Virus record (IMG/VR): IMGVR_UViG_3300044678_003532 | Coordinates: 1-24,219 of that record | Source of the DNA: a virus | DNA length: 24,219 nt | Strand: one strand, 5' to 3' | Notes under the pieces: model-generated | Seen by the model: only the letters and a program-made list of their open reading frames with translations | Database searches by the model: none | Told to the model about the DNA's origin: nothing | Program-made: the position numbers and the translations under genes | In this document: positions 3,983-17,836 of the stretch, one piece after another | How positions within the stretch are numbered: position 1 is the stretch's first letter | How the letters are laid out: each line of letters opens with the position of its first letter

Positions 3983-4410
3983 GTTTTTCCTTGATTATCA
4001 AGGGATTGCGAGGCGTGGGCGCTGGGATTTCAATAGGCCCAAAGACCCTCAAGAATAAGAGAAAGAATACTAGAGAAAACAATAAGAGTATATATAGAGA
4101 ATAATAGAGAGAAACAATGGGAAAATAAGAGAATAAAAAGAGAGTTTAGGGGTGTTTAAGGGTGTTTTAGGGGGTTAAGAGCTTCCACAGCAATTTAAAT
4201 GTATTAAAAATCCCCCAAAAACCTCTCAAAAATGCGAATTTTTCCCCAAAATTACCCCACCAAAAGCGGCAAAGTATGCTTTTTTACTGGCTAAAATACA
4301 AAAAGTATGCTTTTTTACTGGGCTAAATACAAAAAATAAGGTTTTTCACTGGGCTAAATACAAACCCATGCAAATTTTGCAGCTTTGAAAGCGATTTCTC
4401 TTAAAAGAGG
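3983..4410 (+). other. non-coding, origin-like region (polypurine tract, G- and C-runs, tandem repeats)
   Basis: No gene in this stretch. In order: a CCTTGA/TCAAGG hairpin near 3990-4004; a strongly purine-rich + strand from about 4051 to 4145; three G-runs (4149-4152, 4160-4162, 4170-4174) in TTTAGGGGTG-like units; matching C-runs at 4212-4216, 4244-4247 and 4255-4258; then three tandem repeats (4271-4363). Strand asymmetry, G-runs and iteron-like repeats together are typical of replication origins or large regulatory regions. This is inference; no initiator gene is adjacent. Confidence 0.45.
4271..4363 (+). repeat. three tandem repeats of about 32 bp (iteron-like)
   Basis: Units at about 4271-4302, 4303-4334 and 4335-4363. 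The first two are near identical: AAGTATGCTTTTTTACTGG followed by CTAAAWACAAA. The third is diverged at its start (AATAAGGTTTTTCACTGGG). A period close to three helical turns would put the same base pattern on one face of the DNA. Possible initiator or repressor binding sites. Confidence 0.75.
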
Positions 4411-4523: not shown

Positions 4524-4940
4524 ATGAGTCAAAAATGCAACACACTTCTCTGCGGAAAAGAAGCAGTGTATAAGCACAGTCGCACTGGAGAATCTAAATG
4601 CGCCCATTGTCGCGATAAGAGAGGCGACAGATATTCCCTAGCATGGATTGCTCTTGAAGAAGACGACGATGGGTTTTTGAAACTCCCTCCTGCAAAAGTT
4701 AATCTTCCTTATAGCGTATATGAAACTAGCCACGGCCATCTTGTCGTGACAGAAGATGAAGAGAGTAGTGTTTATTTTTCCAAGAGAGAAGAAGAAGCAA
4801 AAAAAGTTTGCGGCGAATTAAATAAGGCATTTAAAAACGGCGCGAATTCTGTTCTTCACAAATTGGACTCTTTTTCTCTTGACCAGCGGCGAAACTTTGG
4901 TATAGTATGGGGAAACAATTCAATGAACGTGAATAATTGA
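4524..4940 (+). CDS. protein with N-terminal four-cysteine zinc-ribbon-like motif
   Basis: 138 residues. Cys5, Cys10, Cys26 and Cys29 (C-x4-C ... C-x2-C, the last pair within KCAHCRDKRGD) form a probable zinc site. The middle is acidic with beta character (LPYSVYETSHGHLVV); a helical segment follows (REEEAKKVCGELNKAF). No known family. The repeat-bearing leader suggests dedicated regulation. It precedes the tRNAs in the same transcript. Confidence 0.65.
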   Translation: MSQKCNTLLCGKEAVYKHSRTGESKCAHCRDKRGDRYSLAWIALEEDDDGFLKLPPAKVNLPYSVYETSHGHLVVTEDEESSVYFSKREEEAKKVCGELNKAFKNGANSVLHKLDSFSLDQRRNFGIVWGNNSMNVNN

Positions 4941-4972
4941 AACCAATTTATGAACGCGATTTTTCTTAATAA

Positions 4973-5047
4973 TCCCAAGTAGCTCAGCGGTAGAGCGGGT
5001 GGCTGTTAACCACTAGGTCGTAGGTTCGAACCCTACTTTGGGAGCCA
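4973..5047 (+). tRNA. tRNA-Asn (GUU)
   Basis: 75 nt, full cloverleaf. Acceptor TCCCAAG/TTTGGGA, D stem GCTC/GAGC, anticodon stem GGTGG/CCACT with loop CTGTTAA (anticodon GTT), T arm GTAGG-TTCGAAC-CCTAC, discriminator G and encoded CCA. Confidence 0.93.
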
Positions 5048-5075
5048 ATTTATGAACGCGATTTTCTTTAATAAT

Positions 5076-5151
5076 AGCAGGGTGGACAAGAGGTTAAGTC
5101 GTTTGGCTCATAACCAAAAGATCGAGGGTTCGAATCCCTCCCCTGCAACCA
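5076..5151 (+). tRNA. CAU tRNA with initiator features, probably tRNA-fMet
   Basis: 76 nt with encoded CCA. The anticodon loop CTCATAA gives CAU. Fixing the 5-bp T stem (GAGGG/CCCTC) leaves 3' acceptor CCCTGCA, so position 1 is A facing A72, an unpaired end; positions 2-7 pair fully (GCAGGG/CCCTGC). The D stem has A11:U24, G10:C25 and C12:G23, and the discriminator is A73. An unpaired 1/72, A11:U24, G2:C71, C3:G70 and A73 are known features of bacterial initiator tRNA and formylase recognition. The anticodon stem (TTTGG/CCAAA) keeps two of the three conserved G:C pairs, with U29:A41 in place of the third. Elongator Met or lysidine-modified Ile2 are less likely because they normally have a paired 1:72 and Y11:R24. 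Confidence 0.85.
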
Positions 5152-5235
5152 ATTTATGAATGCGATTTCTCGTAATAAGCAAAAAAACTCTAATTAAAAC
5201 GCGCCAAATAATGAGCGCAGTTTTCAGAAATAAAT

Positions 5236-5339: not shown

Positions 5340-5367
5340 TTGACGCGGATTAAAAACCCATTATATT
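5340..5367 (+). promoter_or_regulatory. leaderless promoter of the 5374 gene
   Basis: -35 TTGACG (5340-5345), 16-bp spacer, -10 TATATT (5362-5367), six bases to the ATG. Confidence 0.8.
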
Positions 5368-5373
5368 ATCCCC

Positions 5374-5535
5374 ATGCACACACTACTTGATCTCATTCCC
5401 CTCTTCAACGAATACTCTCACGAATGGGAGCTTCGCGAAACTGATGAAAACGATAACACGCTGGAAGTCTATGGCTTCGCCACAGAAGAAGAAGCAGAAA
5501 AGTTTATTGACGAGTGGCTTTTGGCGCAAAAATAA
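5374..5535 (+). CDS. small acidic hypothetical protein
   Basis: 53 residues, TAA at 5533-5535. Rich in Glu and Asp, with a short strand (NTLEVYGF) followed by a helix (EEEAEKFIDEWLLAQK). No family recognised. A single-gene unit: a promoter immediately upstream and another three bases after its stop. Confidence 0.7.
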   Translation: MHTLLDLIPLFNEYSHEWELRETDENDNTLEVYGFATEEEAEKFIDEWLLAQK

Positions 5536-5537: not shown

Positions 5538-5565
5538 TTGACACTGAATAAAAAGTCCTTATATT
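5538..5565 (+). promoter_or_regulatory. leaderless promoter of the 5572 gene
   Basis: -35 TTGACA (5538-5543), 16-bp spacer containing GAATAAAAA, -10 TATATT (5560-5565), six bases to the ATG. Confidence 0.8.
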
Positions 5566-5571
5566 ATTGCC

Positions 5572-6051
5572 ATGAACATTGATCCCAAAAACATGACAAA
5601 CTTCTCCCGCACCAATGCTGAACTACAATCGTTTTGGCTTTTTTCTTTGTTTGTAGCAGTAAAGAATAGCGACTATGCTGCTGGACGCTTGGCTCGTCTC
5701 TTGCACAAGGCAAGGCTTAACGAACAAAATCCTTTTGATTACTTGCGCGAACTTGGCGAGACTGGCATTCACAACGCACTGGTCGCCGCCAAGGCACGTT
5801 TCTTTTTGCTTCACTCTCGCCCTCAGTGTGAATGTGTTGTGCTGGACACTCACATCTTGGCATGGATGAGAAGCAAAGGTATTGATGCCCCAGCCGCTAC
5901 TCCAACAGGAGAAAAGTATTTGTTTCTTGAGCGAGTGTTCCTTAACTTGGCGCAGAGCGAATTCCCCCTCATGAGCATCGCACAAATTGATTTGTTGATT
6001 TGGATGAAGCAAAGCAATAGACTTGAAGACGATTTCCAAAATTCCTTTTGA
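5572..6051 (+). CDS. HhH-GPD DNA-glycosylase-like protein, apparently missing its HhH core
   Basis: 159 residues. The N-terminal part (NFSRTNAELQSFWLF to PFDYLRELGETGIHNAL) and the C-terminal part (ARFFLLHSRPQCECVVLDTH, then a TPTGEKYLFLE region) match my memory of a phage family related to HhH-GPD base-excision glycosylases. In that family a segment of some 40-50 residues with a G-I-G-P-K-T hairpin lies between the two parts. Here residue 74 runs straight into ARFFLL, so the hairpin and its catalytic Lys are absent while the candidate Asp (D92 in LDTHIL) remains. The frame is intact. Either an in-frame deletion has inactivated it or it has another role. The family assignment is from memory. 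Confidence 0.6.
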   Translation: MNIDPKNMTNFSRTNAELQSFWLFSLFVAVKNSDYAAGRLARLLHKARLNEQNPFDYLRELGETGIHNALVAAKARFFLLHSRPQCECVVLDTHILAWMRSKGIDAPAATPTGEKYLFLERVFLNLAQSEFPLMSIAQIDLLIWMKQSNRLEDDFQNSF

Positions 6052-6075
6052 CAAGCATTAAAAACCTCTTATATT
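6048..6075 (+). promoter_or_regulatory. leaderless promoter of the 6085 gene
   Basis: -35 TTGACA (6048-6053), 16-bp spacer, -10 TATATT (6070-6075), nine bases to the ATG. The TGA stop of the upstream gene (6049-6051) lies inside the -35. Confidence 0.8.
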
Positions 6076-6084
6076 ATTCTCACT

Positions 6085-6318
6085 ATGAAATTCATCCTCG
6101 AAGAAAATCAAGAGACAAATCTTCTCTCCCTGAAAGATGTAGAAGAGAATCAATTCTTTGTTGATTTAACTGGTTGTTTGTGCCAAAAAACAACCGATAG
6201 GTCATTTGTAGTTATTGCTCATTCAAATGGCCAGCCACATAGCGACCATTTTGCAGGGCAGTCCAACAACTTGCGCATCAACAGAATCCTACCAAAGGTG
6301 GTAAAAATTGAGTTTTAA
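6085..6318 (+). CDS. small phage protein (LKDVEENQFFVDxxGCLCQK type)
   Basis: 77 residues. Pattern LSLKDVEENQFFVDLTGCLC, a beta-rich middle (FVVIAHSNGQPH) and a C-terminal ILPKVVKIEF. This resembles a short conserved phage protein I recall with the same start and an ILPEV-x-KIEF end; its role is not known to me. Own promoter, single gene. Confidence 0.7.
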   Translation: MKFILEENQETNLLSLKDVEENQFFVDLTGCLCQKTTDRSFVVIAHSNGQPHSDHFAGQSNNLRINRILPKVVKIEF

Positions 6319-6319: not shown

Positions 6320-6348
6320 TTGACAGCCGCGAAAACATCTCCTATATT
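6320..6348 (+). promoter_or_regulatory. leaderless promoter of the 6358 gene
   Basis: -35 TTGACA (6320-6325), 17-bp spacer, -10 TATATT (6343-6348), nine bases to the ATG. Confidence 0.75.
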
Positions 6349-6357
6349 AACAACCTT

Positions 6358-6528
6358 ATGAATACCACCTCATCCACTTATCTTGTTTTCATCACTAGCG
6401 AAGGCGCGAAAGTCCGAGTTTCAATCGAAAGCCTGCTGTATAGCGGTCATCCTATTGACAGCGCAACTGGCGACGATCTGGAATTGTTTTCTAGCGATCT
6501 TGTTGATTGCGATGGCGACCCAATTTGA
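6358..6528 (+). CDS. small acidic hypothetical protein
   Basis: 56 residues, TGA at 6526-6528. The N-terminal half alternates hydrophobic residues (TYLVFITSEGAKVRVSIESL); the C-terminal half is Asp-rich and ends DCDGDPI. No family recognised. A promoter lies directly on each side, so this is a single-gene unit. Confidence 0.65.
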   Translation: MNTTSSTYLVFITSEGAKVRVSIESLLYSGHPIDSATGDDLELFSSDLVDCDGDPI

Positions 6529-6531: not shown

Positions 6532-6559
6532 TTGACAAAGAATAAAAACCCATTATATT
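6532..6559 (+). promoter_or_regulatory. leaderless promoter of the 6569 gene
   Basis: -35 TTGACA (6532-6537), 16-bp spacer with GAATAAAAACCC, -10 TATATT (6554-6559), nine bases to the ATG. Confidence 0.8.
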
Positions 6560-6568
6560 ATCCCTACC

Positions 6569-6850
6569 ATGAATACACAACCTAAACGCGGTCGTCCAGC
6601 AGGCGCAAAAAGCCTTGTTAACATCACTCTTAAACAACTAAACGAATTGTTCGGCCCTGAAACAGCGGTTCCAGTTGGTTCAATCTGGCTTCGCAATTAC
6701 GGTGTTAGCATTCAAACTCCATCTCCTATTGTAGTCACAGCAGCACCAGAAGAGACTGAAGAAGAGCCGCAGATTCAGTTCAGCGTCACTCACTTCGAGA
6801 AGGAAGAACTACCTTCCCCTCCAGAGGAAATTTATGTTGACGCGGAATAA
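6569..6850 (+). CDS. small protein with AT-hook-like RGRP start
   Basis: 93 residues. KRGRPAGAKS near the N-terminus resembles an AT-hook or basic DNA-binding start, followed by VNITLKQLNELFG and WLRNYGVSI, a layout I recall in small phage proteins beginning KRGRPKGSKS. The C-terminal third is acidic and Pro-rich (EETEEEPQ, SPPEEIYVDAE) and probably disordered. The stop lies inside the spacer of the next promoter, whose -35 TTGACG encodes part of the final VDAE. Confidence 0.65.
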   Translation: MNTQPKRGRPAGAKSLVNITLKQLNELFGPETAVPVGSIWLRNYGVSIQTPSPIVVTAAPEETEEEPQIQFSVTHFEKEELPSPPEEIYVDAE

Positions 6851-6876: not shown

Positions 6877-7816
6877 AACGAACCACCACTAACTCATGAA
6901 CAAATCCTTCTCTCACATCATCGGACAAGAGCACATCAAGCGCCAATTGAACTTTTATCTTGATGCTTACAAGAACACGGCGATTCTTCCATTCCTCATG
7001 TTCAATGGCCAGCGCGGCATTGGCAAGACTGAATTTGCCCGCGCTCTCGGTGCCGCATGCAAGAAAACCTTCTACGAGATCAACAGCAGCAGCATCAAGA
7101 ACGAAAAACAGTTCTTCGAGCAGATGATGCCACAGGTTCAAGACACTGATTGTGTCCTGTTCTTTGATGAAGCTCATGAACTGCCTCGCAAGCTCATTGC
7201 TGCTTTTCTCTCTATCCTAAACACAGAAAAGAAAACAGTGGTGACATACACTCATCAAGAGGTTGAATATGTTTTCGACTTCTCCAAGATGAGCTTCATC
7301 TTCGCAACAACAGAAATGGATCGTTTGTTTGCTCCTTTCAAGGATCGCCTAACTGTTGTTGATTTTGTCCCTTACAGCAACAGCGAAGTCAAAGACATCA
7401 TCAAGAAGCGTGTGCCAGATGTGAAGTTTGCCGCTGGCGTTCTTGATGACATCTCCACCACGATTCGCGGCAATGCTCGCAGCGCAGTCAAGCGTGCCAA
7501 AGAAATTGAAATGTATTGTGAAGCAAAGAACAACCCTGACTTTTCCACCGAAGATTGGGCTAGCCTCTGCCACAAGGCCAACATCAACAAGCGCGGTCTT
7601 TCCAATACAGAGATTCAGATTCTCTCCGCCCTGAAAGAACGCGGCCCCTTGACTCTCACAATGCTCAGCGCCATCACTGGCCTCAGCGTTCAAGCTCTTC
7701 GCAAAGATGCAGAGCTTCACTTGCTCAAGATGAATCTCCTACGCATCGACACGAAACGCGAGATCACAAGCCAAGGCTTGCGCCTTCTTGAAACAATTGG
7801 TTAATGGTGGTTCGTT
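6877..7816 (+). repeat. 17-base inverted repeat flanking the RuvB-like gene
   Basis: Leader 6877-6893 (AACGAACCACCACTAAC) is complementary to 7800-7816 at the stop codon (GTTAATGGTGGTTCGTT) at 16 of 17 positions. In the mRNA the 5' leader could pair with the 3' end. The coordinates span both arms. Confidence 0.7.
6896..7804 (+). CDS. RuvB-like AAA+ ATPase (Holliday junction branch-migration type)
   Basis: 302 residues. Walker A GQRGIGKTE (38-46), Walker B VLFFDEAH (87-94), sensor-1 FIFATTE (134-140), candidate arginine finger in FKDRL (R151), sensor-2 RGNARSAVKR (191-200), and a C-terminal winged-helix region (about 235-300: IQILSALKERGPLTLTMLS, VQALRKDAELHLLK). The order and spacing fit RuvB, which drives branch migration with RuvA and RuvC in cellular systems. 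No ruvA or ruvC is visible here. It may act in recombination-dependent replication or be a clamp-loader-like ATPase. The gene is flanked by a 17-base inverted repeat and followed by tRNA-Arg. Confidence 0.85.
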   Translation: MNKSFSHIIGQEHIKRQLNFYLDAYKNTAILPFLMFNGQRGIGKTEFARALGAACKKTFYEINSSSIKNEKQFFEQMMPQVQDTDCVLFFDEAHELPRKLIAAFLSILNTEKKTVVTYTHQEVEYVFDFSKMSFIFATTEMDRLFAPFKDRLTVVDFVPYSNSEVKDIIKKRVPDVKFAAGVLDDISTTIRGNARSAVKRAKEIEMYCEAKNNPDFSTEDWASLCHKANINKRGLSNTEIQILSALKERGPLTLTMLSAITGLSVQALRKDAELHLLKMNLLRIDTKREITSQGLRLLETIG

Positions 7817-7844: not shown

Positions 7845-7920
7845 GCACTCGTAGCTCAGTGGATAGAGCATCGGATTTCTAATCCGTTGGCCGTAGGTTC
7901 GATCCCTACCGAGTGCGCCA
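7845..7920 (+). tRNA. tRNA-Arg (UCU)
   Basis: 76 nt. Acceptor GCACTCG/CGAGTGC, D stem GCTC/GAGC, anticodon stem TCGGA/TCCGT with loop TTTCTAA (anticodon TCT), T arm GTAGG-TTCGATC-CCTAC, discriminator G and encoded CCA. It reads AGA codons, which are common in the phage genes here. Confidence 0.93.
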
Positions 7921-8101
7921 CCCTCTAATAAGCTAACGCGAAAACGAGTAATAATGAACTCGAAACGCCTTAATAGCAAATAAGAGAATGCTTAATAATG
8001 AAAGAGAAAATGAGTAATAATTGAACCTAATAATGCGTAATAAATACACCTAGGGAAGCCTAGTGAGATTTCTTACTTGAATTTCTTAGTGAGGGTAGGG
8101 G
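7921..8101. other. non-coding stretch with TAATAATG-type short repeats
   Basis: No gene seen. At least five variants of TAATAATG/TAATAATT/TTAATAGC recur at about 10-25 base intervals between 7926 and 8050, followed by the first CTAGG boxes. Related CCTAATASTAAATA strings occur before the palindromes near 12350 and 13985-14020. Confidence 0.5.
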
Positions 8102-8135
8102 TTTTACCTAGCCCAGGCGGGCCGCTATAGGTAAA
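8102..8135. repeat. CTAG palindrome copy 1 of 9
   Basis: Arms TTTTACCTAGCCCAGGC and GCTATAGGTAAA. This is the most diverged right arm of the family. It lies beyond the bidirectional terminator of the leftmost - strand gene; CTCCTAGG follows at 8137. Confidence 0.75.
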
Positions 8136-8155
8136 TCTCCTAGGTAGAGGGCACG

Positions 8156-8183
8156 AAAAAGCGCGGTTTCCCGCGCTCTTTTT
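8156..8183. terminator. bidirectional rho-independent terminator
   Basis: GCGCGG/CCGCGC stem (8161-8166 with 8171-8176). AAAAA lies on its left and TCTTTTT on its right, so each strand has a U-tract. It separates the converging RuvB/tRNA-Arg and 8182-gene transcripts. On the - strand the loop is GAAA. Confidence 0.85.
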
Positions 8184-8388
8184 ATTTAACAGAAACATTC
8201 ACGCTAATTTCCACGGGATAAGATTCGTCCCATGAAGTTGCGATTGATTGGTGCCAGCTTTCAAAGCGTTTGTTTTCACTTGTTAGTTTTATTTCATTAA
8301 CAAATTGGTCAAGGTGTTGATTTAGATCAGCCTCCGAAGCTTCTGAAGACATTGAGACTTGGATTATGAGGTTTTTTTGAATTGTCAT
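8182..8388 (-). CDS. hypothetical protein
   Basis: 68 residues from the ATG at 8388 (MTIQKNLIIQVS). An upstream in-frame ATG at 8421 is rejected because it lies in the -35 box. The protein has an alternating hydrophobic start, a polar helical middle (SEADLNQHLDQFVNEIK) and ends PVEISVNVSVK, a compact alpha/beta pattern. No family recognised. Single-gene unit with its own promoter and terminator. Confidence 0.65.
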   Translation of the reverse strand: MTIQKNLIIQVSMSSEASEADLNQHLDQFVNEIKLTSENKRFESWHQSIATSWDESYPVEISVNVSVK

Positions 8389-8393
8389 GGGAA

Positions 8394-8421
8394 AAGATAA
8401 CAGAAAAGAAGAAACCCGCAA
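8394..8421 (-). promoter_or_regulatory. leaderless promoter of the 8182-8388 gene
   Basis: On the - strand: -35 TTGCGG (8421-8416), 16-bp spacer, -10 TATCTT (8399-8394), five bases to the ATG. An A-rich tract just upstream resembles an UP element. Confidence 0.8.
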
Positions 8422-8454
8422 GGCTTTTTTTATTCTTTTTTATTGCTTAGGCGG

Positions 8455-8487
8455 TTTACCTACCCCAGGCCGCCTGGCCTAGGTATT
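8455..8487. repeat. CTAG palindrome copy 2 of 9
   Basis: Arms TTTACCTACCCCAGGC and GCCTGGCCTAGGTATT. It lies between the terminator of the 8551 unit and the UP-like tract of the 8182 gene promoter. Confidence 0.8.
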
Positions 8488-8512
8488 TTCCCTAGGACAT
8501 TGGCATAAGAAA

Positions 8513-8534
8513 GGGGGGCGGTTTCCCGCCCCCC
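8513..8534 (-). terminator. terminator of the 8551-9039 unit
   Basis: - strand hairpin GGGGGGCGG-GAAA-CCGCCCCCC followed by TTTCTT. The stop codon of the 8551 gene lies 16 bases upstream. Confidence 0.85.
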
Positions 8535-8550
8535 TTTGCCTAGAGAACAT

Positions 8551-8832
8551 TTATAAGTTTTTGTAGTATTCCTGCTGATCTTGGTCAGTGATGCCGAAAG
8601 CCTCGCGCAACTTGTCGAATGTGCTAACAGGCACGAAAACTTCCCGCACATAGTCGCCGCGAAGTTTACCAGCACTCAACACAGATTCCAGACTGCCAAG
8701 TGTGGTCAATTGGCGAGGGGCAGCGCCCCACTTGACACAGACGTTCAAGTTTGGAAAAATGCTTTTCAGTTCAGAGTGTGCCGCATCAGTAACGTAGCCG
8801 CCGTTCAGAAGGATTTCTTTCAGTGTGTTCAT
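8551..8832 (-). CDS. hypothetical protein
   Basis: 93 residues, mixed alpha/beta: MNTLKEILLNGGYVTDAAHS is helical, and later segments (VFVPVSTFDKLREAFGI) suggest another strand-helix unit. No recognised family. Its promoter is embedded in the 3' end of the upstream 8854 gene, so it can be expressed alone or from that transcript. Confidence 0.65.
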   Translation of the reverse strand: MNTLKEILLNGGYVTDAAHSELKSIFPNLNVCVKWGAAPRQLTTLGSLESVLSAGKLRGDYVREVFVPVSTFDKLREAFGITDQDQQEYYKNL

Positions 8833-8839
8833 GGTGATG

Positions 8840-8867
8840 AATTTAATATATTTTTATTCTTTGTCAA
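8840..8867 (-). promoter_or_regulatory. leaderless promoter of the 8551-8832 gene, inside the end of the upstream gene
   Basis: -35 TTGACA (8867-8862), 16-bp spacer with GAATAAAAA, -10 TAAATT (8845-8840), seven bases to the ATG. The -35 encodes Asp in the final VVDKE and the stop TAA lies in the spacer. Confidence 0.75.
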
Positions 8868-9039
8868 CTACTTCTTCGCAATGAATGGGAAAGCGTGTTT
8901 CAAGGTTTTTTGCGTGGCATTCTTCCATTGCCAAGTAAAGAGCCTCTTCTTTATCGTTTGCTTTCACCTCTACAAGGGAGGGGTAAAAATTGCCGATTGC
9001 ATTGCGTGAGCGGGTTTCAAAAACAACGTTGTATTTCAT
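8854..9039 (-). CDS. hypothetical protein
   Basis: 61 residues. Beta start (MKYNVVFETRSRN), then VEVKANDKEEALYLAMEECH as a strand-helix unit, ending VVDKE. No family recognised. First gene of the 8551-9039 unit. Confidence 0.65.
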   Translation of the reverse strand: MKYNVVFETRSRNAIGNFYPSLVEVKANDKEEALYLAMEECHAKNLETRFPIHCEEVVDKE

Positions 9040-9046
9040 GGCTTAT

Positions 9047-9074
9047 AGAGTAACAGAAAAAACAAAAGCCGCAA
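9047..9074 (-). promoter_or_regulatory. leaderless promoter of the 8854-9039 gene
   Basis: -35 TTGCGG (9074-9069), 16-bp spacer, -10 TACTCT (9052-9047), seven bases to the ATG. Confidence 0.8.
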
Positions 9075-9106
9075 ATCTTTTTTATTCTTTTTTATTGCTT
9101 AGGTAG

Positions 9107-9140
9107 TTTACCTAGCCCAGGCGGCCTGGCATAGGTAAAA
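9107..9140. repeat. CTAG palindrome copy 3 of 9
   Basis: Arms TTTACCTAGCCCAGGC and GCCTGGCATAGGTAAAA, followed by CTCCTAGG. It lies downstream of the DUF932-like gene. Confidence 0.8.
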
Positions 9141-9164
9141 CTCCTAGGCGTAGGGCATAAGAAA

Positions 9165-9184
9165 GGGGGCGGTTTCCCGCCCCC
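9165..9184 (-). terminator. terminator of the DUF932-like gene
   Basis: - strand hairpin GGGGGCGG-GAAA-CCGCCCCC followed by TTTCTT. Confidence 0.85.
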
Positions 9185-9204
9185 GTAGGGTTATTATTTA
9201 GTTA

Positions 9205-10005
9205 TTATTCGCGATAGTCCGCGCCGTCTTCTTCGGGTGCGTCTTCACATCCTGCCGTGACAATCTCTTGAACTTCGATGGTTGGGGTATGGCAAGCAAT
9301 CGGATCAAGAATGCTCTGGCAGGTCATGGTGCGGAATGGCAGCTTGCTTAAATCGGAACCTTTCAAGATTTCTGTAACAGCATTGTAAAGAGTCCACAAA
9401 CTGCCGCCGTTGAATTCTTCATGGCTTGGCGTGCGGAATTCTGTCACAACATTGTAAATGTCACGGGCTGGCACGGCTTTAGCGTCCACCAGTTTAACGA
9501 TCAGGTTTTCGGCCTGCTCGCTGGTAATGATTGTTTCTTTGTATTTTTCAATACGCGCTCCCATGTCGTTCCAATGGCTTACACAGCGGCCAACTGCATC
9601 AGCCAGAACGCGGGGAAGGTCTGAAAGAATGTGGAGTGTATGGCGGCGGGCCAGTTTGATGTCGGAAGCAAAGCACAAATTTTCACAGCAAATGACGCGA
9701 TTTCCGATGCAAACGGCAGCGGCAAAAGCCTTGTCATGGCTATTGCGAATTGCAAGAACGACTTGGCGATCATTCCCGCTTATTTCCTTGCCTGAGAGAG
9801 AGAATGCCCCAAAGTAACGCTGACCCATGCGAGCAAGCGCGTGTTCTTCTTCCAAGATTTCCAAACCTGCGTTTTCGATAGCTTGGCGAGTAAGCACAAC
9901 TAAAGTATGATGAGGAATCGGCATGAAGCTATCAGTGGCATCTGGAGTCTTGACAGTGGCGAGTTCTTCGGCGGAAACTTTGTTTTTAGCGATGAGGAGA
10001 GACAT
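9205..10005 (-). CDS. DUF932-like phage/plasmid protein
   Basis: 266 residues. From about residue 30 the pattern HHTLVVLTRQAIENAGLEIL, then EEEHALARMGQRYFGAFSL, then DRQVVLAIRNSHDKAFAAAV and VICCENLCF fits the DUF932 family found on phages and plasmids, whose biochemical role is not established as far as I know. The C-terminal tail is acidic (EDAPEEDGADYRE). It is the largest gene of the - strand cassette block and a single-gene unit. Unlike most neighbours it has a 57-base leader, A/C-rich and containing TTAACGAACCA, which also occurs in the RuvB-like gene's flanks. Confidence 0.75.
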   Translation of the reverse strand: MSLLIAKNKVSAEELATVKTPDATDSFMPIPHHTLVVLTRQAIENAGLEILEEEHALARMGQRYFGAFSLSGKEISGNDRQVVLAIRNSHDKAFAAAVCIGNRVICCENLCFASDIKLARRHTLHILSDLPRVLADAVGRCVSHWNDMGARIEKYKETIITSEQAENLIVKLVDAKAVPARDIYNVVTEFRTPSHEEFNGGSLWTLYNAVTEILKGSDLSKLPFRTMTCQSILDPIACHTPTIEVQEIVTAGCEDAPEEDGADYRE

Positions 10006-10062
10006 ATTATTTTTCGTGTTTTGTGTTTTGGTTCGTTAAGCGTTCTGTTTTGAACGTGCATA

Positions 10063-10090
10063 AAGATACCACATCAAAAACAAAAAGCAA
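10063..10090 (-). promoter_or_regulatory. promoter of the DUF932-like gene
   Basis: -35 TTGCTT (10090-10085), 16-bp spacer, -10 TATCTT (10068-10063); the leader is 57 bases and has no Shine-Dalgarno sequence. Confidence 0.7.
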
Positions 10091-10188
10091 CATCTTTTTA
10101 CTCTGGCGCGAAAATTAACCCGAAAAGTTTTTTTCAACTTGGCACGATAATTGAATGCTTAGGAGAATTTCTTACGGGGGCATAGGTG

Positions 10189-10222
10189 TTTTACCTAGCC
10201 AGGGCCGCCTGGCCTAGGTAAA
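10189..10222. repeat. CTAG palindrome copy 4 of 9
   Basis: Arms TTTTACCTAGCCAGGGC and GCCTGGCCTAGGTAAA, followed by CCCTAGGG. It lies downstream of the 10279-11229 unit. Confidence 0.8.
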
Positions 10223-10246
10223 TTCCCTAGGGAAGGAGCCTAAAAA

Positions 10247-10266
10247 GGGGGCGGTTTCCCGCCCCC
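10247..10266 (-). terminator. terminator of the 10279-11229 unit
   Basis: - strand hairpin GGGGGCGG-GAAA-CCGCCCCC followed by TTTTTAGG, 12 bases after the stop of the micropeptide gene. Confidence 0.85.
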
Positions 10267-10278
10267 CGTGCCTAGGAA

Positions 10279-10338
10279 TTATCTTGATCTGACTAGCGTG
10301 GCCAGTATTGCTATAAGAAAAACGATTAGAATCTCCAT
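10279..10338 (-). CDS. 19-residue membrane micropeptide, coupled to the GP88-like gene
   Basis: The upstream gene's stop and this ATG overlap as TAATG, an arrangement typical of translational coupling. The peptide starts MEILIVFLIAILATL and ends RSR, a single transmembrane helix with a basic end. The terminator follows its stop directly, so the reading frame fills the space to the unit's end. Function unknown; it could be a membrane toxin or accessory factor. Confidence 0.5.
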   Translation of the reverse strand: MEILIVFLIAILATLVRSR

Positions 10339-10970
10339 TAGTGTTTAGGGTAAAAGACTACTGCTTGATTCTTATCCCAACAAGCGCGGCAACTACCGCA
10401 CACGCCGCCTTGATTGTAGGCAGGGCAGGAAACTTTCTTAGGGTCGCTAGTAACGCCCGACATGGTAACGCCGAGGCGATTGGCCGCGCCATCTGGCAAT
10501 GGACCATCTACCATGTAAGCGGAAAGCCTAATGTTGAGGTTATCAGGGAAGCTGCCATGCTTTTCCTTGTAGGCTGTGACTAGGGCATATTCCCTAGTCG
10601 GGAGCCAGTGGCGAACGTCTGGAGTCAAACGGCAAACTTGCGCGATGCGTTCCAAGTGTTCGAGGTTTTGAATGTCGCCGCTGTCATGCCAGCGAAAGAC
10701 ATTTATGCCCGTTTGGTTGATTTGAAAAACCATCGCTTCCACCCATTCCGAATGGATGAGAGAAGCGAGGCGACGTTGCAAGGCTTTCTTCACATTGCCG
10801 AAAACGTAACGCCCTTTTAGAGCGTAGCATTTAGAGCAAATGGAGCCTTGCACAGAACGGAGGCGAGAGCCTACGTTGCACGCTTGGGCAGGGATGCTGT
10901 AAGCAAACCCTGGCATTTTGGATGGCTTGGAAAGGCCACCAGTAATTTCTTTAGCAAGTGCGGGTGTCAT
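10338..10970 (-). CDS. GP88-like cysteine-rich phage protein
   Basis: 210 residues from the ATG at 10970. An in-frame ATG at 11105 would read through the upstream gene. The pattern CSKCYALKGRY, VFRWHDSGDIQNLEHLERIA, RHWLPTREY and a C-terminal cluster (CPAYNQGGVCGSCRACW) matches my memory of the 'Gene product 88' family of phage proteins. At least six conserved Cys (CSKC near residue 45, the last four near the C-terminus) suggest a metal or Fe-S site; the reaction is unknown. It follows the 10990 gene by 19 bases and is coupled to the micropeptide. Confidence 0.7.
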   Translation of the reverse strand: MTPALAKEITGGLSKPSKMPGFAYSIPAQACNVGSRLRSVQGSICSKCYALKGRYVFGNVKKALQRRLASLIHSEWVEAMVFQINQTGINVFRWHDSGDIQNLEHLERIAQVCRLTPDVRHWLPTREYALVTAYKEKHGSFPDNLNIRLSAYMVDGPLPDGAANRLGVTMSGVTSDPKKVSCPAYNQGGVCGSCRACWDKNQAVVFYPKH

Positions 10971-10989
10971 AGGTTGAGAAGTTAGCAGC

Positions 10990-11229
10990 TTATTCTTCAA
11001 TGTCAACGCCCATAGAGCGCAATTCTTGACGAACGCGGGAGAGAGGCACAAGATGACCGTCGCCGTCATCTTCGTCATCTTCGCCATAGGCGAAGTCGAA
11101 AGCATTGAAAACCGTATCAGCGTCCAGTTTCAAAGCTTCAAAGGCAGGCGCGAGGTTTTCGCGGCTGTTATTCATCAGCCAGTCAACTAGGTTGACCAGC
11201 ACATCAATGGCTTGTGTTTGTTTTTTCAT
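10990..11229 (-). CDS. small acidic hypothetical protein
   Basis: 79 residues from the ATG at 11229, chosen because the promoter lies just upstream. A longer frame to 11343 includes the promoter. Helical N-terminal half (AIDVLVNLVDWLMNN), a middle EDDEDDGDG run, then LVPLSRVRQELRSMGV. No family recognised. First gene of the GP88 unit. Confidence 0.65.
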   Translation of the reverse strand: MKKQTQAIDVLVNLVDWLMNNSRENLAPAFEALKLDADTVFNAFDFAYGEDDEDDGDGHLVPLSRVRQELRSMGVDIEE

Positions 11230-11239
11230 AGGCAAGGTA

Positions 11240-11268
11240 AACTTAGCACACGCAAAGAAAGAGCGCAA
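11240..11268 (-). promoter_or_regulatory. promoter of the 10279-11229 unit
   Basis: -35 TTGCGC (11268-11263), 17-bp spacer, -10 TAAGTT (11245-11240), ten bases to the ATG. Confidence 0.6.
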
Positions 11269-11411
11269 ATCATTTTGGCGCATTTTTAATCTTTTTTTAT
11301 TCGCGAGACTTGGCACGGGACGTGCTAGGGGAAAGCGTGTCAAATGATTTATTTATTTATTTTTTGCTTGACAAGGGAGGCTTAGGAGTTTTTCCTAGCG
11401 AGGCATAGGAA

Positions 11412-11444
11412 TTTTACCTAGCCAGGGCCGCCTGGGGTAGGTAT
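11412..11444. repeat. CTAG palindrome copy 5 of 9
   Basis: Arms TTTTACCTAGCCAGGGC and GCCTGGGGTAGGTAT, with more CTAG boxes at 11394 and 11462. No GC-rich terminator with a U-tract is seen for this unit; a GAGGC/GCCTC hairpin lies at about 11493-11507. Confidence 0.75.
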
Positions 11445-11545
11445 CTTTCTTAGTCCCCCACCTAGGGTAAGTCGCGGGATTTCTCCGTTGATCGAGGCAT
11501 GGAGCCTCTTGTCCCCTAGGCGAGAGAAAGATTTAGCATATTGAC

Positions 11546-11677
11546 TTAATCCATCTCGTCAAGCGCAAGAATGTGATCTTCTATCTCTTCAAAAGATTTT
11601 CCTTGTTTGGCCATTTTGTCGATGGTAAAACGATATTGCGGATATTCGGCTCTGAGGTCGTCAAGCGTGTTGTTCAT
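11546..11677 (-). CDS. 43-residue hypothetical protein
   Basis: Starts at the ATG at 11677, six bases after a -10 box; upstream in-frame ATGs lie in the promoter or the neighbouring gene. Sequence: MNNTLDDLRAEYPQYRFTID, then MAKQGKSFEEIEDHILALDE. Two helices with an acidic end. No family recognised. Confidence 0.6.
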   Translation of the reverse strand: MNNTLDDLRAEYPQYRFTIDKMAKQGKSFEEIEDHILALDEMD

Positions 11678-11683
11678 GCTGGC

Positions 11684-11711
11684 AAGATAACAGTTTTTAT
11701 TCTTCTGGCAA
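11684..11711 (-). promoter_or_regulatory. leaderless promoter of the 11546-11677 gene, inside the upstream gene's end
   Basis: -35 TTGCCA (11711-11706) encodes part of the final DLPEE of the 11697 gene; 16-bp spacer with its TAA, -10 TATCTT (11689-11684), six bases to the ATG. Confidence 0.8.
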
Positions 11712-11879
11712 GTCTTTTTTGTCTTTATTTTTGAGTCTCGCACGCGCAAGGGCGCGAGAGTATTTTTTGTGCTCGCTAACGTCTCGAATTTTGCGGCAGC
11801 AACGGCAACCATATTTGGCGCGTTTGTTTTTGCTGCTATCAAGGCATTCTTTCTTTTGTTCTGCTCTGAAGCTATCCAT
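11697..11879 (-). CDS. small basic Cys-rich protein
   Basis: 60 residues. KYGCRCCRKIRDVSEHKKYS carries three Cys and a His; the C-terminal half is very basic (ARARLKNKDKKD) and ends LPEE. Possible nucleic-acid or metal binding. Its last codons resemble those of the next upstream gene (DLLEE), explained by similar promoters embedded in both 3' ends. Confidence 0.6.
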   Translation of the reverse strand: MDSFRAEQKKECLDSSKNKRAKYGCRCCRKIRDVSEHKKYSRALARARLKNKDKKDLPEE

Positions 11880-11903
11880 TGTTTTTATTCTTTAATGAGC
11901 TTT

Positions 11904-11932
11904 AAGATAGCGGGTTTTTATTCTTCTAGCAA
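11904..11932 (-). promoter_or_regulatory. promoter of the 11697-11879 gene, inside the upstream gene's end
   Basis: -35 TTGCTA (11932-11927), 17-bp spacer with GAATAAAAACCC and the upstream TAA, -10 TATCTT (11909-11904). 24 bases to the ATG. Confidence 0.7.
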
Positions 11933-12067
11933 GTCTTTTTTGTTTTTTTCTTTGCGGCGGTAGTCCTTGGCGCTTTTATGTTTCTGCGGCGGCGGCGGAA
12001 GGTCTTTGCGCACGCGCTTTTTCAACTCACGATCACTAATTGTGCCGATGTGATGGGTTTTATTCAT
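11918..12067 (-). CDS. 49-residue basic hypothetical protein
   Basis: ATG at 12067, TAA at 11920-11918. Sequence features: MNKTHHIGTISDRELKKRVR, a PPPP run, and a Lys-rich end (KEKNKKDLLEE). No family recognised. It sits in a run of four closely spaced genes, each with its own promoter. Confidence 0.6.
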   Translation of the reverse strand: MNKTHHIGTISDRELKKRVRKDLPPPPQKHKSAKDYRRKEKNKKDLLEE

Positions 12068-12072
12068 GCAGG

Positions 12073-12279
12073 CTAGAGCTTATTATATTTCCGCACAAGG
12101 TCAAGGCGTTCTTCAAAATGTTTGGCAATTGTTTGATTGGTTACAATCAGGTGTTCAAGCATGCCTTTGTAGAACGCTGCGTTGAAAATGTGCGTTTGTT
12201 CACTTGTCAAGGCCGCGCCTCTGCTTTCTTCGCAGATTTGACGGAGTAGGTTGCTCGCGGTTTCGTATGTGTGGTTCAT
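12073..12279 (-). CDS. helical hypothetical protein
   Basis: 68 residues, predicted all-helical (TYETASNLLRQICEESRG, FNAAFYKGMLEHLIV, HFEERLDLVRKYNKL). No family recognised. Its final LDLV codons carry the TTGACC of the next promoter and its TAG stop lies five bases before the next ATG. Confidence 0.65.
   Translation of the reverse strand: MNHTYETASNLLRQICEESRGAALTSEQTHIFNAAFYKGMLEHLIVTNQTIAKHFEERLDLVRKYNKL
12077..12104 (-). promoter_or_regulatory. probable leaderless promoter of the 11918-12067 gene, inside the upstream gene
   Basis: -35 TTGACC (12104-12099), 16-bp spacer, -10 TAAGCT (12082-12077), nine bases to the ATG. A better-looking TATAAT lies just upstream but has no -35 at a normal distance. 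Confidence 0.55.
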
Positions 12280-12285
12280 GTTTCT

Positions 12286-12313
12286 ACTATAGAGGCAAAA
12301 GAGCTTCCGTCAA
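12286..12313 (-). promoter_or_regulatory. leaderless promoter of the 12073-12279 gene
   Basis: -35 TTGACG (12313-12308), 16-bp spacer, -10 TATAGT (12291-12286), six bases to the ATG. Confidence 0.8.
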
Positions 12314-12425
12314 ATAGAAAAAGATAAAAATCCAAATTCAAAACCCCCTAATACTAAATAGAAACCCTATAAATAGCTTTCTTAGGGAAGATTCTTACAG
12401 GGATTAGTCTGAGGTCTTAGGGAAA

Positions 12426-12458
12426 TTATCTAGGCCAGGCGGCCTGGCCTAGGTAAAA
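12426..12458. repeat. CTAG palindrome copy 6 of 9 (near perfect)
   Basis: Arms TTATCTAGGCCAGGC and GCCTGGCCTAGGTAA, among the most symmetric copies; CACCTAGG follows. Upstream on the + strand are CTAATACTAAATA and further CTTAGGG boxes. Confidence 0.85.
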
Positions 12459-12474
12459 CACCTAGGAAAACTGA

Positions 12475-12513
12475 GGGGGCAGGAAGGGCAACATCAAAAA
12501 CCTTCCCGCCCCC
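12475..12513. terminator. long GC hairpin ending the 12521-13262 unit
   Basis: Stem GGGGGC (12475-12480)/GCCCCC (12508-12513) plus GGAAGG (12482-12487)/CCTTCC (12501-12506) with one mismatch and a 13-base loop. The T-rich tract is on the + strand side, so terminator activity is clearer for + strand transcription; on the - strand only a short TTTT follows. Confidence 0.6.
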
Positions 12514-12520
12514 TTTTGTT

Positions 12521-12778
12521 TTACCGCCTAGAGAAATTTCTTACGAGGCTTGAGATTTTTTCTTCTGCTTTGAGCAAGAAAGTTTTGGCGCTCTTTTGGA
12601 TGTTCTTCTTAGATAGGATTTTCGCCTTGCTTTCGATTGGCGGCGAAGGTTTGAACTTTGCCTTTTGCAAGGCGCGAGGTGAAAAAGTGTTCACGCGAGA
12701 GCTAAAGCTGGCTTTATTTTCCAGCAGGTAATGCCATGCGGCATTCACGGAAGCGGTGGCGGATTCTAGGCGTAGCAT
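12521..12778 (-). CDS. basic hypothetical protein
   Basis: 85 residues from the ATG at 12778, 23 bases after the upstream stop; an in-frame ATG at 12811 overlaps that gene. Helical start (MLRLESATASVNAAWHYLLE), then a very basic Ser/Lys-rich C-terminal half. No family recognised. No separate promoter, so cotranscribed with 12802. Confidence 0.6.
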   Translation of the reverse strand: MLRLESATASVNAAWHYLLENKASFSSRVNTFSPRALQKAKFKPSPPIESKAKILSKKNIQKSAKTFLLKAEEKISSLVRNFSRR

Positions 12779-12801
12779 ATATTTTTTATTGATTAAAAAG
12801 A

Positions 12802-13086
12802 CTATTCCCAAGCCAGTTCAAGGCCAGCGACGTGAAGATTCCGATACTTGATTTCGCTGTTATCGTTCAAGTCCTCGACCTTGGCCGTGATGAATGTTCG
12901 GCCAGTTTTGCCAGTTCCAACGTGTTCGATGTCCAGAATCTTGAAGTTTCGCACCCCGTTGGGCTTGACCTTGCTTTCTCCCTCATTGAGGTAAACAACG
13001 TTTTTGCCGTTGAGAGCTTCAATGACAGCTTCTTTTTTGGAGCGGAGAAGGGCGACTAGGTTTTCTTTAGTGATGAGGTCTTTCAT
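12802..13086 (-). CDS. hypothetical protein
   Basis: 94 residues from the ATG at 13086; upstream in-frame codons up to 13296 overlap a separate gene and promoters. Helical N-terminus (LITKENLVALLRSKKEAVIE) and a beta-rich C-terminal half (FKILDIEHVGTGKTGRTFIT, KYRNLHVAGLELAWE). The GTGKTGR string is not a convincing P-loop: there is no preceding strand-glycine context or Walker B. Size and layout resemble the 14692 gene, a possible distant paralogue. Confidence 0.65.
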   Translation of the reverse strand: MKDLITKENLVALLRSKKEAVIEALNGKNVVYLNEGESKVKPNGVRNFKILDIEHVGTGKTGRTFITAKVEDLNDNSEIKYRNLHVAGLELAWE

Positions 13087-13109
13087 AGTGTTGTTTTGGT
13101 TACGGGTTA

Positions 13110-13137
13110 AAGATAAGCGAGAAAGGGGAGAAGTCAA
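13110..13137 (-). promoter_or_regulatory. promoter of the 12802-13086 gene
   Basis: -35 TTGACT (13137-13132), 16-bp spacer, -10 TATCTT (13115-13110), 23 bases to the ATG with an A/C-rich leader (GTAACCAAAACAACACT). The -35 overlaps the TGA stop of the upstream gene. Confidence 0.75.
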
Positions 13138-13262
13138 GCCTTTTTCGACACGCAGAAAGAAAAGACAAGTTTTCCCACGCGCACGAAACGAATGCCGCCG
13201 ACTTTGCGAGTGGAGAAGCGAAAGAGGAGGATTTTTGGCTTGCGAAATGTGATTTTCTTCAT
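13134..13262 (-). CDS. 42-residue very basic protein
   Basis: ATG at 13262, TGA at 13136-13134. Alternating Lys/Arg and hydrophobic residues (MKKITFRKPKILLFRFSTRK, then GGIRFVRVGKLVF). It could bind nucleic acid or membranes. Support for being real: a consensus leaderless promoter exactly upstream and a stop codon merged with the next -35. Confidence 0.55.
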   Translation of the reverse strand: MKKITFRKPKILLFRFSTRKVGGIRFVRVGKLVFSFCVSKKA

Positions 13263-13268
13263 GGCCAC

Positions 13269-13296
13269 AAGATAACAGAAAAAGAGATTCGCGCAA
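13269..13296 (-). promoter_or_regulatory. leaderless promoter of the 13134-13262 gene
   Basis: -35 TTGCGC (13296-13291), 16-bp spacer, -10 TATCTT (13274-13269), six bases to the ATG; A-rich UP-like tract upstream. Confidence 0.8.
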
Positions 13297-13320
13297 TGCC
13301 TTTTTTAACTTGTTTTTATT

Positions 13321-13340
13321 CTAGTAATTAGCATGCCAAG
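13321..13340. repeat. 20-bp repeat (pair with 16104-16123)
   Basis: CTAGTAATTAGCATGCCAAG, repeated at 16104-16123 with one difference. Shorter relatives containing TTGGCAYG occur near 10139, 11309 and 15050. Confidence 0.7.
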
Positions 13341-13375
13341 ATTGCAGGAAAGTTTTTTTTGTTTTCTCTTAGGGA

Positions 13376-13410
13376 TTTTACCTACGCCAGGGGGCGTGGC
13401 CTAGGTATTT
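13376..13410. repeat. CTAG palindrome copy 7 of 9
   Basis: Arms TTTTACCTACGCCAGG and GCGTGGCCTAGGTATTT; CTCCTAGG follows. There is no separate GC-rich terminator after the 13427 gene, so this palindrome is the only hairpin at the unit's end. Confidence 0.8.
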
Positions 13411-13426
13411 CTCCTAGGGCTTATGC

Positions 13427-13624
13427 TCACCAATGGTAATCGTCTTCTGGATGAGGCTGTGGAGGCCCGCAGTAAAAAGGATTCGGTTCCCACACATCAA
13501 AGTCCGTAAGAATCCAAGCGTGAGTTGGTTTTTCCGCGCCAAACAAAAGAGTCATTTCTGCATGGGCTTCCTGCGTGGGAGTGCCCCCATAAGAGGGGGG
13601 ATCATATTCGTCGGGTGTCATCAT
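13427..13624 (-). CDS. Pro/Tyr/Trp-rich hypothetical protein
   Basis: 65 residues; two adjacent ATGs (13624 and 13621) could serve. N-terminal MMTPDEYDPPSYGGTPTQEA is likely disordered, the middle is helical, and the end is WEPNPFYCGPPQPHP then EDDYHW. No family recognised. It follows the 13673 gene by 48 bases without a consensus promoter, so probably cotranscribed. Confidence 0.55.
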   Translation of the reverse strand: MMTPDEYDPPSYGGTPTQEAHAEMTLLFGAEKPTHAWILTDFDVWEPNPFYCGPPQPHPEDDYHW

Positions 13625-13672
13625 AAGATTTAAGTTTAGTTGTGTAAGGGCAACTTTCGCCGCCCTCGTAGG

Positions 13673-13870
13673 TCATTCACCGAAGTCGCATTCGGTCTGG
13701 CTTTCGTAGTAGCTATCAAGCCACTGATCCTCCATTGGCTCAACGTCATCATCGTGACTGTCAAACTCTTGATTGTCGGAGGGTTCTTCGCCCTCAAAAC
13801 CGTTGACCTCATCAAGGTCATAAGCGGGGCGGGCGGCGTGCATGTCTTCGGCGGTGATAGAGAATTGCAT
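13673..13870 (-). CDS. acidic hypothetical protein (MQFSxTAEDMHA family)
   Basis: 65 residues from the ATG at 13870. The N-terminus MQFSITAEDMHAARPAY is nearly shared with the 15250 gene (MQFSTTAEDMHADAIAY). The rest is very acidic (DEVNGFEGEEPSDNQEFDSH, then DDDVEPMEDQWLDSYYES). The two are clear paralogues diverging after the first dozen residues. Such acidity could mimic DNA, but that is a guess. Confidence 0.65.
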   Translation of the reverse strand: MQFSITAEDMHAARPAYDLDEVNGFEGEEPSDNQEFDSHDDDVEPMEDQWLDSYYESQTECDFGE

Positions 13871-13908
13871 AACAGAGGATATATTAATGGTTAACTGACT
13901 ACGCGCAT

Positions 13909-13936
13909 AGAATAACAGAAAACAAAGAACGCGCAA
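13909..13936 (-). promoter_or_regulatory. promoter of the 13427-13870 unit
   Basis: -35 TTGCGC (13936-13931), 16-bp spacer, -10 TATTCT (13914-13909). 38 bases to the ATG. Confidence 0.7.
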
Positions 13937-14059
13937 ATCTTTTTTTCATGTTTTTTATTCATCAAACTGCAAACTCGAAATCTCCTAATAGTAAATACTA
14001 AAGCGCCTAATAGTAAATAGACTTCTTAGGTAAGACTCCTAGGGTAAGAGTCTTAGGGA

Positions 14060-14093
14060 TTTTACCTATGCCAGACCCCCTGGCCTAGGTAAA
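14060..14093. repeat. CTAG palindrome copy 8 of 9
   Basis: Arms TTTTACCTATGCCAG and CTGGCCTAGGTAAA around ACCCC, followed by CACCTAGG. It lies about 17 bases past the 14111 gene stop with no other hairpin. Confidence 0.8.
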
Positions 14094-14110
14094 CCACCTA
14101 GGAGGCCCGA

Positions 14111-14353
14111 TTAGAGCGTCTGCGCTTCTTCTAGGGCTTTTCTGTAGGCATTCTGGGCGTTCTGGCTTTCCTGCCTCCAGAAGTTTACCGAGTCCTGCCA
14201 GAAAATGTCGTTGGGGAGTTCCTCGACTTTCTTAAGGGCGTTTCTTGCGTTGTTGTCGCAGATTGTCTGCTCGCGCTTAGCGAAAGCAAGCAGAGTGCAA
14301 AAAGTTTCGCGGGAAATTGTGATGGTGTCTTTCATGGGGATTTTGTTTGTCAT
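14111..14353 (-). CDS. helical hypothetical protein
   Basis: 80 residues from the ATG at 14353 (MTNKIPMKDTITISRET), eight bases after the -10; an in-frame Met at 14335 is an alternative. The rest is helical and coiled-coil-like (RNALKKVEELPNDIFW, RQESQNAQNAYRKALEEA). No family recognised. Confidence 0.65.
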   Translation of the reverse strand: MTNKIPMKDTITISRETFCTLLAFAKREQTICDNNARNALKKVEELPNDIFWQDSVNFWRQESQNAQNAYRKALEEAQTL

Positions 14354-14361
14354 AGGGTTAG

Positions 14362-14389
14362 AAGGTAACAGAAAAAAAGATTCGCGCAA
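14362..14389 (-). promoter_or_regulatory. leaderless promoter of the 14111-14353 gene
   Basis: -35 TTGCGC (14389-14384), 16-bp spacer, -10 TACCTT (14367-14362), eight bases to the ATG. Confidence 0.8.
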
Positions 14390-14397
14390 TGGTTTTT

Positions 14398-14655
14398 TTA
14401 TTTTGTTTTAGCCAAAATGTCTTTTCCTTTTTCTGTTAATTCCCAAGGAGCATAATGGAAAAAGTCTTGAATTTTGACATTGATTACGCCATCAAGTTTC
14501 GCGCATTCGGGAGCATCACAGAACGCTCGGCTTTTATTATCCAAAAGGAGCCAAAGCAAAGTATCAACATGAACATTTTCTTTTTTCGCCGCTTTTTTAG
14601 CAGTGCGCAAAGTTTCGCCGCTCAATTCTCTTTTGATTTGTTTCAAGTTTTCCAT
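14398..14655 (-). CDS. hypothetical protein
   Basis: 85 residues. Basic helical start (MENLKQIKRELSGETLRTAK), a hydrophobic helix (VDTLLWLLLDN), then a part with two Cys (FCDAPECAKLDG) and an end with ELTEKGKDILAKTK, the sort of segment seen at the end of winged-helix domains. A small DNA-binding protein is possible but unproven. Confidence 0.6.
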   Translation of the reverse strand: MENLKQIKRELSGETLRTAKKAAKKENVHVDTLLWLLLDNKSRAFCDAPECAKLDGVINVKIQDFFHYAPWELTEKGKDILAKTK

Positions 14656-14662
14656 AGGTTAG

Positions 14663-14690
14663 AAGGTAACAGGTTTTTTTGGCTTGGCAA
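14663..14690 (-). promoter_or_regulatory. leaderless promoter of the 14398-14655 gene
   Basis: -35 TTGCCA (14690-14685), 16-bp spacer, -10 TACCTT (14668-14663), seven bases to the ATG. Confidence 0.75.
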
Positions 14691-14691
14691 A

Positions 14692-14970: not shown

Positions 14971-14975
14971 GACTT

Positions 14976-15003
14976 ATTATGCCACATGGCAAGAGAACTG
15001 CAA
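14976..15003 (-). promoter_or_regulatory. leaderless promoter of the 14692-14970 gene
   Basis: -35 TTGCAG (15003-14998), 16-bp spacer, -10 CATAAT (14981-14976), five bases to the ATG. Confidence 0.7.
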
Positions 15004-15132
15004 ACTCTTTTTTGTTTTGTTTTAATCTTTTTCATCTATGGAAATTATCATGCCAAGTTTGAAGAAAAGATTTTTTTCTTTTTTCTTGACAAGGGAAAGC
15101 GGGTTAGGGGAGCTAGGTGAACCTCTTAGGCG

Positions 15133-15166: not shown

Positions 15167-15206
15167 GTTCTTAGGGTTCTTTTCTTAGTTCTCTTAGGGA
15201 TGGCCC

Positions 15207-17819: not shown

Positions 17820-17820
17820 A

Positions 17821-17830: not shown

Positions 17831-17836
17831 ATCTGA

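Follow-up and report, generated by a model that had tools for sequence, protein, structure and literature searches.

Published determinants of formylation and initiation (PMC7949028, PMC9976931) were followed here, the initiator features being the absence of a Watson-Crick pair at 1:72, a purine 11:pyrimidine 24 pair and three G:C pairs at 29–31:39–41 (3GC). Formylation is aided by G2:C71, C3:G70 and A73, with G4:C69 as the fourth minor determinant (PMC9976931). The 3GC pairs of the anticodon stem have been described as universal in initiator tRNAs (review PMC4611024). Initiator-type tRNAs are already known from phages: examples occur in PA5oct, CcrColossus and other phages, where the annotation reads simply tRNA-Met or is lacking. 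Raised fMet-tRNA strongly enhances the translation of leaderless messages and only mildly that of canonical ones (PMC9031893). Toxins of the VapC type cleave tRNA-fMet, phage tRNAs have been proposed to evade such nucleases, and phages reportedly tend not to encode tRNA-fMet where it is a VapC target (PMC10264068).

Sequence features of the CAU tRNA

The window, that is the whole stretch of DNA analysed, is a virus record of 24.2 kb and probably a fragment. The tRNA gene at positions 5076–5151 on the plus strand is real; ARAGORN called it as tRNA-Met(CAU) with exactly these boundaries, and the match to the Rfam tRNA family scored 63.4 bits (E 7.6e-12). An earlier note had pointed to initiator hallmarks in this gene, and direct reading of the sequence bore out each of them: A1 faces A72 and is unpaired, G2:C71 and C3:G70 are present in the acceptor stem, the discriminator is A73, the D stem (G10:C25 A11:U24 C12:G23) includes A11:U24, and the anticodon stem (U27:A43 U28:A42 U29:A41 G30:C40 G31:C39) retains two of the three G:C pairs. 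The tRNA thus lacks a Watson-Crick pair at 1:72, has a purine at 11 opposite a pyrimidine at 24 and possesses these three formylation aids. The fourth determinant is replaced by A4:U69, as in several viral relatives, and the 3GC set is incomplete owing to U29:A41. The anticodon loop is CUCAUAA, CCA is encoded, and the D stem consists of three pairs only, with A.A at 13:22. When the tRNA was folded alone as a single strand, the minimum was not the cloverleaf.

With tRNA-fMet of the Escherichia coli metZWV/metY type, the tRNA has in common the 1x72 mismatch, G2:C71, C3:G70, A11:U24, A73, the CUCAUAA loop, G30:C40 and G31:C39, at 72% identity. It differs in having A1xA72 instead of C1xA72, U29:A41 instead of G29:C41, a T loop of UUCGAAU instead of UUCAAAU and the three-pair D stem. 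The paired 1:72 and Y11:R24 of elongator tRNA-Met are both absent, and so are the paired 1:72 and the likeness to ileX expected of tRNA-Ile2; identity was 55% to metU and 53% to ileX.

Assignment to the initiator class

A CAU anticodon is compatible with initiator tRNA, elongator tRNA-Met and lysidine-modified tRNA-Ile2. We therefore aligned 287 distinct CAU tRNAs, labelled them by their 1:72 pair, masked that pair and scored the remainder. Held-out accuracy was 98% for initiator-labelled and 86% for paired tRNAs, some of the errors resembling mis-set acceptor ends. The tRNA of the window scored +29.6, and +27.6 when its whole D-arm family was left out, a score that is not independent of all assumptions because the labels derive from 1:72 and many of the initiators were found through D-arm patterns. 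E. coli references scored +26.7 and +28.0 (fMet), −15.2 (elongator metU) and −26.2 (Ile2 ileX). A clear score as Ile2 or elongator Met, named in the earlier note as one outcome that would overturn the initiator reading, was thus not obtained.

Phages with two CAU tRNAs point the same way. One phage genome (G016) encodes a C1xA72 tRNA that is 93% identical to that of the window over the aligned 74 nt, together with a second CAU tRNA with G1:C72; in the part compared, this genome and the window phage have only tRNA matches in common. Two clamp-loader relatives of the window phage (G010 and G011) each encode one CAU tRNA with C1xA72 and one with A1:U72. Such pairs of an unpaired and a paired CAU tRNA correspond to the division of labour expected between an initiator and an elongator or Ile2 species. 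That the tRNA is an elongator tRNA-Met or a tRNA-Ile2 with an odd acceptor end is very improbable: the incomplete 3GC set and D-loop positions 17 and 19, which score slightly against an initiator, would fit it, but A11:U24, the classifier scores, the presence, in phages both related and unrelated, of a further CAU tRNA that is paired, and the retention of the 1:72 mismatch in unrelated phages all speak against it. Together with a 1:72 mismatch that drifts in identity but is kept (below), these results give good support to the initiator type, and judged from its sequence the tRNA is very probably an initiator. We file it as a 2GC initiator-type variant and not as a canonical tRNA-fMet, because its 3GC set is incomplete, 3GC itself not being universal (below).

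A D-arm family with an unpaired 1:72 position

The D-arm of the tRNA, GGACAAG-N-GGUUAAGUC, defines a family that is nearly confined to viruses: a search with this pattern found 27 viral contigs and a single match among 84,980 cellular genomes. Eleven distinct CAU tRNAs of the family could be parsed cleanly, a count that omits members with a weaker acceptor parse including two A:U cases (L025, L036); in the eleven, position 1:72 was A.A, C.A, U.U, C.C, A.C or, once, A:U, and never G:C. It was thus unpaired in 10 of 11, vs 29 of 1,185 distinct non-CAU viral tRNAs (Fisher p 4e-15). Position 1:72 therefore changes yet stays unpaired, as predicted by selection for an initiator. The particular mismatch A1xA72 was also found in a canonical 3GC initiator (L098).

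The sole cellular copy of the pattern is an initiator-scoring CAU tRNA with U1.G72 and C73 at positions 1616–1689 of an Armatimonadetes MAG contig (L163) with ordinary chromosomal genes; it is perhaps of phage origin. A canonical initiator (L200) is also encoded in this genome, so that the match pointed to no host for the window phage.

Neighbouring tRNA gene and spacer repeats

Immediately upstream of the CAU tRNA lies a gene for tRNA-Asn(GUU) on the plus strand (4973–5047; ARAGORN, Rfam), and the two are probably co-transcribed. A candidate promoter for both, TTGACC-16-TATAGT, matches the consensus at 10 of 12 positions and lies on the plus strand at 4879–4906, within the end of an ORF at 4524–4940. 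Repeat comparison identified three plus-strand copies of a spacer repeat flanking the tRNAs, at 4942–4972 (AATTTATGAACGCGATTTTTCTTAATAAT), 5046–5075 and 5149–5178. This noncoding repeat, AATTTAYGAACGCGATTTTTCTTAATAAT, surrounds both tRNAs (4942–5178) and is also found around the tRNAs of L004, the closest relative of the window phage; it is possibly a processing or recombination element. A coding mini-gene (MNAIFxNN) was ruled out because the copy in L004 has ACG instead of ATG.

At positions 1809–1884, L004 carries a different, partly degenerate CAU tRNA that likewise has A1xA72, with U73 as discriminator; its D-arm is too degenerate for a class to be assigned. This degenerate tRNA and the spacer repeats around the tRNAs of the window would suit a passenger, a decaying and functionless tRNA gene moved among phages with its flanking repeats. 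We regard such an origin as improbable, given that the stems, CCA and identity elements of the window's tRNA are intact and that the unpaired 1:72 is maintained across deep divergence.

Loss of G29:C41 in viral initiator-type tRNAs

Viral initiators were searched with an initiator D-arm pattern that left the anticodon stem free. Full 3GC was present in only 24 of 94 distinct viral initiator-type tRNAs. Among 107 newly fetched, non-deduplicated viral matches (contigs L414–L521), G30:C40 occurred in 104 and G29:C41 in 27, position 29:41 being A:U in 52 and U:A in 27. The U29:A41 stem of the window's tRNA is therefore ordinary for a viral initiator. For a cellular baseline, the same pattern was applied to the genomes of one phylum, Armatimonadota, where approximately 96 of 117 matches had GGG and 20 had A29 (a count made by eye); the three A29 cases checked had the pair A29:U41 and kept G30:C40 and G31:C39. 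Cells thus also have stems without G29:C41, but at a far lower frequency than the viral sample, cells being represented by this one phylum. These Armatimonadota initiators resemble the window's tRNA in naturally lacking G29:C41 while retaining G30:C40 and G31:C39, but differ in having a canonical GGAGCAG D-arm, C1xC72 and A29:U41. The CAU tRNAs of PA5oct, CcrColossus, Xanthomonas phage DoCa5 and Vibrio phage V05 have an unpaired or weak 1:72 and two G:C pairs only, the UUUGG/CCAAA stem of CcrColossus being identical to that of the window's tRNA. Their D-arms differ, and the D-arm family of the window stands apart from them.

The literature searched, whose coverage was limited, contained no account of phage initiators with a relaxed 3GC. 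Viral initiators that mostly lack G29:C41 while keeping G30:C40 and an unpaired or weak 1:72 offer a natural mutant series for testing initiator features.

One reading of the altered stem is that the tRNA stands in for host tRNA-fMet that VapC-type toxins have cleaved, the changed anticodon stem making it resistant. The known cleavage of tRNA-fMet by VapC, the proposal of evasion by phage tRNAs and the far more frequent alteration of 29:41 in viral than in the sampled cellular initiators are in keeping with this, and like the phage tRNAs described as evading nucleases (PMC10264068) this would be a phage-encoded tRNA replacing a host species. Unlike in those, the anticodon loop is unchanged, being the same as in E. 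coli fMet, and the tRNA is an initiator, a species that phages reportedly avoid in general where it is the nuclease target; we consider evasion unlikely.

Leaderless-type promoters in the window

The pattern TTGAC-N16-18-TATATT-N4-9-ATG has seven exact matches in the window, vs none expected from 100 shuffles. All are on the plus strand. Four are leaderless-type promoters, preceding the ATG codons at 1261 (1227–1263), 2185 (2151–2187), 5374 (5340–5376; TTGACG..TATATT, 6 nt before the ATG) and 5572 (5538–5574); three are leaderless or near-leaderless, preceding those at 6085 (6048–6087), 6358 (6320–6360) and 6569 (6532–6571). From the distance between −10 box and ATG we infer leaderless starts for these genes. 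No excess of Shine-Dalgarno (SD) motifs was found before the genes of the window (0.07 vs 0.10 at internal ATGs), and SD-like GGAG/GGAGG precedes the genes at 14455 and 21814. The description of this DNA in the earlier note as full of leaderless genes accordingly holds for the left arm and does not extend to all genes.

In the right arm, AGTGTAATATAATCTGA-ATG (17800–17840) and AGTGTAATTTAAATT-ATG (18530–18570) directly precede genes; these boxes may represent a second type of leaderless promoter. TAAGTAT boxes occupy the same place before genes in unrelated contigs (L019–L021).

Relation of the initiator tRNA to leaderless genes

The earlier note had also suggested that the tRNA and the leaderless genes may form a matched pair. 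On this reading the phage would keep an initiator tRNA specifically because its leaderless genes need high fMet-tRNA. This is biochemically plausible given the response of leaderless translation to fMet-tRNA, and the seven promoters of the window are in its favour. Among the matches listed, and with simple SD and −10 measures and crude ORF calls, contigs with strict relatives of the tRNA (L016–L022) were SD-less in 4 of 6 cases vs 8 of 95 controls, and SD-less with a −10 box just before the ATG in 3 of 6 vs 3 of 95, although they have almost no proteins in common with the window phage beyond the tRNA match. Initiator contigs as a whole were SD-less in 22 of 82 cases vs 8 of 95 tRNA-Asn contigs (p 0.001), again among the matches listed.

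Contigs with the tRNAs most like the ordinary elongator tRNA-Arg of the window, however, taken with a relaxed pattern since the exact one matched nothing, were equally SD-less (4 of 6), and one of these contigs is the same contig that carries an initiator relative; a shared host pool would explain the bias. Among the matches listed, moreover, an SD excess was seen in 60 of 82 initiator-bearing viral contigs, the leaderless-like share was not significantly raised (6/82 vs 3/95, p 0.3), and tRNA-Asn controls were SD-less in 0 of 8 cases with an initiator vs 7 of 47 without. In the SD-less fragment of one relative (G009), which has 20 tRNAs, no initiator was found. The comparative tests therefore do not single out a matched pair: the closest relatives of the tRNA are indeed mostly SD-less, but so are those of tRNA-Arg, and most initiator contigs use SD motifs. 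We regard the specific pairing as doubtful. The general claim that an initiator tRNA implies a leaderless phage was not supported among the matches listed.

A wider proposal, which we hold only tentatively and think rather unlikely, is that the initiator tRNAs of viruses constitute a relaxed class keeping only 1x72 and G30:C40, jointly with a virus-only lineage (GGACAAG-type D-arm, 1:72 unpaired, G29:C41 given up) common to large phages of SD-poor hosts, which would raise or re-tune initiation toward leaderless phage mRNAs. Lying beside strong leaderless-type promoters, the tRNA is well suited to testing whether initiation is tuned by viruses via an initiator tRNA.

Proposed role of the CAU tRNA

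With considerable confidence we read the gene as that of a viral initiator tRNA that would be charged, formylated and added to the fMet-tRNA pool during infection. Host MetRS would charge it via the CAU anticodon. Formylation by the host formyltransferase is predicted because 1:72 is unpaired beside G2:C71 and C3:G70, with A73. G30:C40 may let the P site of the 30S subunit accept the tRNA despite U29:A41. The fMet-tRNA pool would thereby be enlarged at a time when it is contested by many phage start codons. Leaderless messages of the phage, being strongly fMet-tRNA-dependent, would benefit, and so would all other messages. Simple supply of initiator tRNA, topping up the host stock, is probably the best explanation.

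Other features of the window

The window further encodes a clamp-loader protein (6896–7804), tRNA-Arg(UCU) (7845–7920), a PhoH-like protein (17837–18559) and a terminase-like protein (from 21814). Between minus-strand genes at 8070–15174 there are nine copies of a repeat of ~74 nt with the palindromic core TTTTACCTAGCCCAGGCCGCCTGGCCTAGGTAAA, several of them followed by a GC-rich GGGGCGGTTTCCCGCCCC hairpin; from their sequence they look like terminator and promoter units separating single genes. Three tandem direct repeats of 31 nt (AAAGTATGCTTTTTTACTGGGCTAAATACAA) at 4271–4363 are iteron-like. The ORF at 2185–2643 contains four in-frame 63-nt repeats (2265–2579) encoding GFWxKxEYDDEGNEIxYE units.
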